The position numbers and the translations under genes are program-made. A stretch of DNA of 8,969 bases from Pseudomonadota bacterium. GTDB lineage: Bacteria; Pseudomonadota; Alphaproteobacteria; Rhizobiales; Rhizobiaceae. Each line of letters begins with the position of its first letter. Positions within the stretch are counted from its first letter, which is position 1. Below are positions 7,658-8,969 of the stretch, piece after piece. The stretch is from contig JAEXMK010000073.1 of NCBI GenBank assembly GCA_023444445.1, positions 1-8,969 of the forward strand, read 5' to 3'. The notes below the pieces were generated by a model. That model searched no databases. It was not told the DNA's origin and worked only from the letters and a program-made list of their open reading frames with translations.

Positions 7658-7761
7658 GGAGCATGAGGGTGCGTGGGGCGGGTGTCTTGGATGAAATTGC
7701 AGTGCAGACGCTTGTCGGCCCGCCCCGAAGTGGCAGGTTACGGTATCGGCCAGCACACTCC

Positions 7762-7769
7762 GTCCTCAT
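7762..7769 (-). repeat. Right flank of the IS110 insertion: short remnant of the target repeat end
   Basis: On the minus strand the bases after the element end read AT then GAGGAC. They match the outer end of the repeat at 4742-4749 (ATGAGGAC) base for base. Joined to the other flank at 8943-8969 they restore CACAGGAATGAGGAC, a normal repeat end. Confidence 0.8.
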
Positions 7770-8731
7770 CAAGTCAGTCGTATTTGAGTGTTGTGATACA
7801 CTTTCAATCTAGCATTTGCGATGACGATGATGTGTCGCATGATTGCCCCAAGAGCCGTGAGTTTTGACTTTCCGGCAGCGAGTAGTCGTTTGTATATCGC
7901 GGCCAGATGGCTCTTGCTGTGGCTTGCAGCCATGGCTGCCGTGAAGAGCAACGGTCGTAACTGGCGTCGTCCGCCTGTAGCAAAGCGACGACCTTTGCGC
8001 GCGCCGCTATCACGGGCATGAGGGGCGCATCCGGCCAGGCTTGCGGCCCGCTTGCGATCGATGTGTCCGAGTTCCGGCATCAGTGCCAGCAGCACCGGCG
8101 CGATCACCTTGCCAATGCCTGGAACGGTTTGCAGGATAGCCTTGCGATCTTTCAAGTTGGTATCGCGGCTCATGATCATTTCGATCTGTTTGTCGATAGC
8201 CTCGATACGACGCTTGATTTCACCAATATGGCCGGCAATCTCGCGTGCGAGCGGCTTATTGCGTGGTGCCTTCAGGCGGTTTTCCTCTTGCACGCGCATG
8301 GACACGAGATCGGCCCGACGCAAGACCAGCAGCTTCATCTTTGCTTCATGCGGCTGACTTGGGCGCCAGCGTGCTAGAGATTGCGCCCGTGACAGACCAT
8401 ATTCTGCGATATGGCGTGCATCGATGGGGTCTGTCTTGGCATTTGCGCCGCAGGCGCGGATGAAGGCTTTGACCCTTGAGGCGTCTGCGCGGTGGGCGGG
8501 GATGGAAAGGTCTTCGAGGGCATCGAGCAGATCATCCTCGTAGCCACCGGTGGCTTCGCAAATGGCGAGCATATCGACACATCCAACATATGGCTTCAAG
8601 GTGGCCTTGAGGGCAGACGTGGTGTTTTCGACGGTGCCGGTCTTTCCGGTGCGGGTATCGAAGAATGTGATTGTTGCTTTGGAGACGTCAAATCCCAAAG
8701 CGAACTGGATTTGTGCGGTGTTCGGGTTCAT
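7769..8731 (-). CDS. IS110-family DEDD/serine transposase (bridge-RNA-guided recombinase), 320 aa
   Basis: Recombinase that cuts and rejoins donor and target DNA under guidance of the element's bridge RNA. The N-terminal RuvC-like domain shows the full DEDD set: Asp15 in GFDVSK, Glu59 in CEATGGYE, and Asp101 and Asp104 in KTDPIDARHIAEYG. A helical, charged middle (about 120-195) leads to the C-terminal Tnp domain, with TVPGIGKVIAPVLLA (202-216) as a helix-hairpin-helix-like stretch, then SLAGCAPHARDSGARKGRR with Ser242 as the likely nucleophile. The spacing is nearly that of IS621 as I recall it (D11, E60, D102, D105, S241). The frame is open to an ATG at 8782, but that start lies in the donor-binding loop. 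The ATG at 8731 has GGAG six bases upstream and gives a normal N-terminus. The stop TGA is made of the last TG of the element and the A of the core. Confidence 0.95.
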   Translation of the reverse strand: MNPNTAQIQFALGFDVSKATITFFDTRTGKTGTVENTTSALKATLKPYVGCVDMLAICEATGGYEDDLLDALEDLSIPAHRADASRVKAFIRACGANAKTDPIDARHIAEYGLSRAQSLARWRPSQPHEAKMKLLVLRRADLVSMRVQEENRLKAPRNKPLAREIAGHIGEIKRRIEAIDKQIEMIMSRDTNLKDRKAILQTVPGIGKVIAPVLLALMPELGHIDRKRAASLAGCAPHARDSGARKGRRFATGGRRQLRPLLFTAAMAASHSKSHLAAIYKRLLAAGKSKLTALGAIMRHIIVIANARLKVYHNTQIRLT

Positions 8732-8737
8732 GATGGG

Positions 8738-8741
8738 CTCC
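8738..8741 (-). promoter_or_regulatory. Transposase ribosome-binding site, GGAG
   Basis: GGAG sits six bases before the ATG at 8731 and decides the start. Its first base also closes the donor-loop outer stem (pairing with 8800), so the RNA fold touches the ribosome site. Confidence 0.7.
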
Positions 8742-8914
8742 ATGCTTGGCATTGTCTGCGGGCGCGGTAAAAGCCGGCCCATTCAAGTCAACAAGCGATG
8801 CGAAGCTGGTGCGATTGTAGCCCAGGATGAGGTCGGTCGAGAAGACCAATTCCTGTTCGGGCCTACAACCGCATGACCTCCGGGGTCGCCACCTCGGAGG
8901 TCATCCAACTTCCC
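8738..8914 (-). ncRNA. Bridge RNA of the IS110 element
   Basis: Predicted RNA of about 175 bases. Its order is as in known bridge RNAs. First is a 5' hairpin: ten pairs, 8873-8882 with 8895-8904. Second is the target-binding loop: outer stem 8811-8823 with 8859-8872, inner stem 8833-8838 with 8844-8849. Its left arm holds LTG ACAGGAAT (8849-8856) and its right arm RTG CCTCAT (8827-8832). Third is the donor-binding loop: outer stem 8741-8748 with 8792-8800, inner stem 8760-8767 with 8774-8780. It holds LDG TGACTTGA (8783-8790) and RDG CAGACAAT (8751-8758). LTG and LDG equal the top strand left of the core, while RTG and RDG are complements of the top strand right of the core, which is the known rule for the family. 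The 5' end is inferred from the promoter; the 3' end is uncertain. Confidence 0.92.
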
Positions 8915-8918
8915 AAAC

Positions 8919-8942
8919 AATAAAGCACAATTCCGACAGACA
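8919..8942 (-). promoter_or_regulatory. Left-end half of a junction promoter for the bridge RNA
   Basis: TTTATT (8919-8924) is the -10 candidate. When the element ends join around the core, TTG of the right end (7772-7770), AT of the core and T (8942) spell TTGATT, exactly 17 bases upstream. In the integrated state the matching hexamer is GGAATT, a poor -35. Circle-junction promoters of this kind are known for IS110 elements. Confidence 0.7.
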
Positions 8943-8969
8943 ATTCCTGTGCTTGTCACAGGAATCCAG
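8943..8969. repeat. Terminal palindrome of the rhizobial repeat, interrupted by the IS110 element
   Basis: ATTCCTGTG and CACAGGAAT form a perfect nine-pair palindrome around CTTGT, followed by CCAG at the window end. It aligns with the right-end palindrome of the repeat at 4717-4743 (reverse complement) except for compensating base changes in the stem. Homology to the repeat stops exactly at 8943, where CCTCAT should continue and the IS sequence begins. The rest of the repeat should lie beyond base 8969. Confidence 0.85.

Follow-up and report, generated by a model that had tools for sequence, protein, structure and literature searches.

A predicted bridge RNA with four guides in the left end of an IS110-family insertion sequence from Rhizobiaceae

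Introduction

RNA-guided recombination has already been published for relatives of the element described here (PMC11208160, PMC11208158, PMC11187229). In IS621, the bridge RNA lies in the non-coding left end and consists of a 5' hairpin followed by a target loop and then a donor loop. Its four guides are placed around the core, the transposase is of the DEDD plus serine type and the target lies in a palindromic repeat (PMC11208160, PMC11208158). The left target guide of IS621 has 9 bases, the left donor guide has 8 (A123-C130) and is followed by the linker A131-U132, and the catalytic residues are D11, E60, D102, D105 and S241 (PMC11208158). The published account of ISEc21 describes a shorter RNA, the seekRNA, which derives from an upstream non-coding region and matches both target strands, with target matches rather than donor guides in the part of the account available to us; its circular intermediate carries a promoter at the abutted ends (PMC11187229). 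IS110 elements in palindromic repeats are also already known, an example being ISRm19, which had 4/4 copies within such repeats of Sinorhizobium meliloti; the part of its description available to us considers no RNA (PMC1525189).

Here we analysed the window, a stretch of 8,969 nucleotides from a Rhizobiaceae contig. We consider it highly probable (about 95%) that the left end of its IS110-family element gives rise to a predicted bridge RNA with four guides, with which the transposase would likely join the circle to the target at a shared AT. The element has in common with IS621 the left-end position of the predicted RNA, the order of hairpin and loops, the four guides, the transposase type and the repeat target. 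With ISEc21 it shares the upstream non-coding region, the matching of both target strands and, as a prediction, the circular intermediate with its junction promoter, and with ISRm19 the family and the palindromic sites. It is well evidenced that the element is a new member of the bridge-RNA IS110 group rather than a new kind of system.

Results

An IS110-family element between two AT cores

The features of the locus are collected in Table 1. The transposase contains the domains PF01548 (DEDD_Tnp_IS110, 56.3 bits) and PF02371 (Transposase_20, 58.2 bits), both above cut-off, and narrowly passes NF033542, 'IS110 family RNA-guided transposase' (141.1 against a cut-off of 140). Two solved structures were matched at E <= 0.01: IS621 (8wt6, 4.5e-29), from which the protein is divergent (105 bits), and ISCro4 (PDB 9t56, 1.1e-28), homologous over residues 12-310 and likewise divergent in sequence. 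In the alignment to IS621, E59, D101, D104 and S242 fall on its catalytic E, D, D and serine motifs, and D15 was placed by motif only because this alignment begins at residue 51. Among 7997 scored candidates, 355 proteins matched at E <= 1e-60. The nearest among the matches listed (120 of 355) is 99% identical, and among the same matches an Agrobacterium sp. 22-226-1 protein, 82% identical, is named IS110 family RNA-guided transposase.

Table 1. Positions of the element, its guides and its flanks in the window
Feature	Position	Strand	Remarks
IS110-family insertion sequence	7770..8942	minus	left end 8942, right end 7770, between two AT core copies
IS110-family transposase, 320 aa, uninterrupted ORF	7769..8731	minus	domains and alignment to IS621
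GGAG, likely ribosome-binding site for start codon at 8731	8738..8741	minus	inferred from sequence
Right-junction core AT	7768..7769		base read and empty site
Left-junction core AT	8943..8944		base read and empty site
Left target, arm of dispersed palindromic repeat (CTGGATTCCTGTGACAAGCACAGGA)	8945..8969	minus	
Right target half (GAGGACGGAGT)	7757..7767	minus	same as the uninterrupted site in L058
Left target guide ACAGGAAT	8849..8856	minus	equals left flank plus core
Right target guide CCTCAT	8827..8832	minus	complement of core plus right flank
Left donor guide TGACTTGA	8783..8790	minus	equals right end plus first core base; AT next
Right donor guide CAGACAAT	8751..8758	minus	complement of core plus left end
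5' hairpin of predicted bridge RNA	8873..8902	minus	comparative fold, compensatory change in 8/10 pairs
Target-binding loop	8810..8872	minus	outer stem 8864-8872 with 8810-8819; inner stem 8845-8848 with 8834-8837
Donor-binding loop	8744..8796	minus	outer stem 8791-8796 with 8744-8750; inner stem 8777-8780 with 8760-8763
-10-like TTTATT	8919..8924	minus	candidate promoter, inferred from the built circle junction

From the left end to the start codon there are 211 non-coding bases, whereas the right end is short and the stop codon extends into the right core: the TGA (7769-7771) spans the right end, and its last base is the first minus-strand core base, 7769. This layout differs from that of the IS1111 group, in which the RNA-coding region lies downstream of the transposase. 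It agrees with the IS110 group, as do both protein domains, the catalytic D/E/D/D/serine residues, the long non-coding left and short right end, and the two-loop order of the guides in the comparative fold. The guides also track target and donor across relatives, the donor part being confounded by descent.

Orthologous loci were identified through the gene beside the right end, which is present in 24 of 39 genomes of the nearest genus (called here the same genus, and defined by the nearest genome, G001, which has 23% of the window's sampled words in common). One of the 24 loci (L058) is an empty site, in which 25 left-flank bases, a single AT and 11 right-flank bases are joined with 38/38 identity, and 9/24 carry the 12-base target ACAGGAATGAGG at that place. 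Because L058 carries the uninterrupted site, the ends of the element are fixed. Flank and element differ in the bases adjoining AT on both sides, and the shared core is therefore AT and nothing longer. AT had been proposed as the core in the earlier note on this DNA, and the single AT joining the flanks in L058 bears this out. IS621 has a CT core, and AT cores also worked for it (PMC11208158). In L030 and L099 the left core copy is GT and the right one AT, possibly reflecting GT-core targets or later mutation.

Among the relatives, L014 aligned to the whole element at 84%. Several remnants lie at repeat ends. In L016 (~1496-1633), two right ends of the element face in opposite directions and form a miniature palindrome with CCTCAT and ATGAGG on its two sides; it looks like a scar left by insertions into both ends of a single repeat after the interior was lost. 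L118 holds a right-end remnant at a repeat end near 1500, a minimal inverted pair, and L064 a lone right end in opposite orientation near 2284, adjoining the orthologous gene and again a remnant at a repeat end. A plasmid collection yielded four records by DNA search (two Agrobacterium and two Sinorhizobium medicae fragments) and two by protein search; the Agrobacterium plasmid copies (L100 and L101) are truncated and their left end is without the 5' hairpin. A search of viral contigs for relatives of the element confirmed none.

Four guides match the flanks and ends of the element

To compare the left end with its DNA partners, each guide was read base by base on the minus strand. The left target guide is identical to 8943-8950, and the right target guide complements 7764-7769 (ATGAGG). 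The left donor guide is identical to 7769-7776, and the right donor guide complements 8937-8944 (ATTGTCTG). The four pairs had been proposed in the earlier note, and every one of them is exact. In the left end past the initial 10 bases each motif is found a single time, the left target guide coming first, then the right target guide, the left donor guide and the right donor guide. In 20,000 dinucleotide shuffles of this part of the left end the motifs were present in 52, 1059, 102 and 39, respectively, and all four in order in 0/20,000. The right target guide, with 6 nt, is weak evidence when taken alone. The guides match the element's own ends and both halves of the repeat, and the element therefore likely steers its own insertion by base pairing.

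The pairing resembles that of IS621 with some differences. The left donor guide runs for 8 bases up to the first core base, and A-U comes next, which is also the layout of IS621 (PMC11208158), whereas the right donor guide is 8 contiguous bases here and pairs discontiguously in IS621 (PMC11208160, PMC11208158). The base after the left donor guide is A in 5 of 20 alignment rows, those of the window's clade, and T in the other 15, where the match would extend to the second core base. We considered whether this A is a core mismatch or defect and rejected the idea, since the IS621 linker A131-U132 has the same layout. Of the two handshake positions of IS621 only one pairs in the window element: the position after the right target guide pairs in 32/34 insertions, the window included, whereas that after the right donor guide pairs in 25/36 and is G against target A in the window.

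Guides agree with flanks across relatives

We compared guides with flanks and ends in 36 insertions belonging to 18 clusters, the window included. Element ends in the relatives were set by end motifs and not by guides, and guides were set by alignment columns; for L106, L109 and L099 the offsets were taken from a close relative of equal length. L027 and L028 contributed the left junction only, and clusters G294 and G403 have an identical left end. The count excludes L051, which duplicates the region of L029; the truncated L100 and L101; L033, whose left end is cut; L035, in which the left end is laid out differently; L015-L026, which are fragments or short matches; and the loci with <39% protein identity and differing ends (L003-L013, L036-L050, L054-L056 and L110-L114).

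The left target guide plus core fitted its own flank at 8/8 positions in 20 of the 36 insertions, at 7/8 in 13, at 6/8 in one (L090) and at 5/8 in two (L030 and L099). By eye, the truncated L100 and L101, outside the count, fit at 6/8. The right target guide plus core fitted at 6/6 in 22 and at 5/6 in 12 of 34 insertions. When guides were permuted among clusters, the observed fit was reached in 0/20,000 for the left target guide; for the right target guide it was reached in 0/20,000 with 4 nt and in 23/20,000 with 3 nt. Another cluster's guide gave a better fit in 4/18 clusters on the left and in 4/16 on the right (4 nt). Among the 36 insertions there are just 14 different left target guides and 16 different guide pairs.

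Donor guides also matched across relatives. The left donor guide with the first core base fitted at 8/8 in 29 and at 7/8 in 5 of 34 insertions, and with both core bases at 9/9 in 25 and at 8/9 in 9; the right donor guide fitted at 8/8 in 23 and at 7/8 in 13 of 36. Permutations reached these fits in 39/20,000 (left) and 0/20,000 (right), which is weaker evidence and confounded, because guide and end are inherited together. The comparison of homologues suggested in the earlier note came out in favour for the target guides, which track their own flanks; for the donor guides, the match to the element ends holds across relatives, and its permutation evidence is confounded by common descent.

The comparative fold has a target loop and a donor loop

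A consensus fold was obtained from an alignment (A1) of 20 of the 24 distinct left ends, leaving out L100, L106, L109 and L099. In it, a 5' hairpin is followed by the target loop and then the donor loop, and the guides of each loop lie on opposite arms. Consensus pairs were paired in 90.8% of cells, compared to 35.0-50.2% with partners slid by 1-3 columns. Compensatory change was found in 18/35 pairs, a value reached by 0/500 shuffles; another structure measure, further pair types, was reached by 26/500. Covariation is concentrated in the 5' hairpin and in the outer target stem (8/9 pairs), and the donor-loop stems gain little support from it because their pairs are nearly invariant.

Folding of the single left end, a check that the earlier note had proposed, gave a very stable structure (z -5.34). 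That note had placed the guides on opposite arms of two internal loops, the target loop preceding the donor loop. The order agrees with both the motif order and the comparative fold, and the opposite arms are present in the comparative fold but not in the single-sequence ensemble. In that ensemble, pairing is predicted for the central part of the left target guide, for most of the right target guide and for almost the whole right donor guide, and the left donor guide is mostly free, so that an internal loop is not visible from one sequence. An Rfam scan of the window returned no family at gathering score.

In a circle junction built from the sequence (7770-7772, core and 8942), TTGATT is separated by 17 bases from TTTATT, with 8/12 consensus matches. 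The other 20 distinct junctions have a similar arrangement at the same place, with a spacing of 17 or 18 bases and 6 to 9 consensus matches; those of L030 and L099, with their GT left core copy, read TTGGTT. This pair of boxes may be a promoter that is created in the excised circle and would transcribe the leader RNA. With a start ~7 bases past the -10 box, the RNA would extend ~170-175 nt to the donor stem or the ribosome-binding site, a length near the 177 nt of the bridge RNA used with IS621 (PMC11208158).

The target is a dispersed palindromic repeat

In intergenic DNA, ACAGGAATGAGG marks where copies of a dispersed palindromic repeat end; this repeat presumably resembles the Rhizobium intergenic mosaic elements (RIME). 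The 12-base target occurs 988 times in the 39 genomes of the nearest genus (0 to 115 each, with at least one in 34/39), compared to at most 1 per strand and genome for its reversed control. In G001, 22 of the 51 exact sites form 11 inverted pairs, 7 at 104-107 bases and 4 at 19, and no pair in other arrangements was found within 200 bases. Empty sites take two repeat forms, one of ~116 bases with two palindromes and the other a single 31-base palindrome (L063). From the inverted pairs and both repeat forms, it follows that the repeat often offers two inverted target sites.

We also counted the targets of several elements in 16 genomes. The window's 12-mer has 51 and 4 copies in two same-genus genomes and 0 or 1 in the other 14. 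The target CCCGGAATGACG has 27 copies in its own host, G366, yet 36 and 22 in two other hosts, and the exact 12-mer targets of G719 and G495 showed no clear host preference in the 16 genomes. Tracking of targets by host lineage is thus only partly supported, being clear for the window's target and not for those of G366, G719 and G495.

By eye, the same intergenic place, upstream of a LysE-type gene, carries a different palindromic repeat, of the GTCATGCCGG type, in L060, L067, L068, L070, L074 and L076, and, with variants, in L057 and L061. This spot seems to hold different repeat families.

A related clade lies within apparent intrinsic terminators

A related IS110 clade, with 33-36% protein identity to the window's transposase, is represented by L040, L055, L110, L111 and L112 (one genome), L042, L045 and L050. 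All eight loci (8/8, from 4 genomes) lie within apparent intrinsic terminators: a hairpin with its end at the left junction has -13.4 to -23.0 kcal/mol, compared to a median of -6.6 and a 5th percentile of -13.5 for the controls, and T occupies 5 to 8 of the first 8 right-side bases. By eye, their left ends carry GCCGGCTT-like stretches, which vary between elements, together with AAAAAAGC; from their sequence, these look like candidate target guides for a generic terminator. No description of such terminator siting of this clade was found in the literature searched, which included the available part of PMC9208149.

It is possible, at somewhat short of even odds, that the guides of this branch have repeatedly been re-aimed at the edges of hairpin-forming intergenic DNA, for harmless and plentiful sites. 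These edges would be repeat ends in the window's subfamily, whose palindromic repeats differ in sequence between hosts, and intrinsic terminators in the related clade. The terminator-associated clade is the stronger lead for this proposal.

Discussion

At this locus or in its relatives we observed the four matches, the precise boundaries of the element, its empty site, guides that agree with flanks in relatives, and the comparative RNA structure. The earlier note had recognised an IS110 (IS621) bridge-RNA architecture here, and this interpretation held up, given the stable fold, the two loops of the comparative structure, the empty site that fixes the boundaries and, in 18 clusters, guides that follow the flanks. 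By analogy with IS621 and ISEc21, the RNA would be expressed and would guide recombination of the element. Target pairing would fall to the first internal loop of the RNA and circle-junction pairing to the second, and the DEDD/serine transposase would recombine target and circle junction at AT.

The element may be of the bridge-RNA kind with this copy or its clade impaired, for example through the donor-loop handshake base that is unpaired with the target; we think this unlikely. The G opposite A would fit such impairment, as would the scarcity of copies, with only one whole-length match among 201 relatives and 5 exact right junctions in 4 of the 39 same-genus genomes, some of them remnants. 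However, the transposase gene is open, and R. smilacinae has the left end of the same clade, with the same G, at two distinct sites (L001 and L002). The A that comes next to the left donor guide, moreover, follows the layout of the IS621 linker A131-U132 (PMC11208158).

Stable hairpins directly upstream of the start codon, and the regulatory RNAs described for ISPpu9 (PMC8450116), could instead suggest that the left end is only a structured leader regulating transposase expression, its target matches being picked-up repeat sequence. This is very improbable, since both target guides vary in step with unrelated flanks across 18 clusters and the donor guides correspond to the element ends; a captured repeat would not yield opposite-strand halves in two loops. 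Almost no weight attaches to the protein being a TIGR-Tas-like RNA-guided nuclease rather than a recombinase: its match to NF052498 (E 3.8e-4), at 20.5 bits, is far under the cut-off of 100, and the DEDD_Tnp_IS110 domain, the defined element ends and the empty site speak against it.

As a bridge-RNA element, the insertion offers a compact natural test of the bridge-RNA model, since its four guides come with an empty site and with relatives whose targets differ and whose donor ends vary slightly. Which pairings are needed could be asked with the natural variants present here, namely a core of AT, a right donor guide without interruption and a handshake position that fails to pair. If guides of this branch are indeed re-aimed at hairpin edges, RNA guidance would serve to find harmless landing sites, many per genome. 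With this many targets in a genome, specificity and a wide choice of landing sites could go together in an RNA-guided element.
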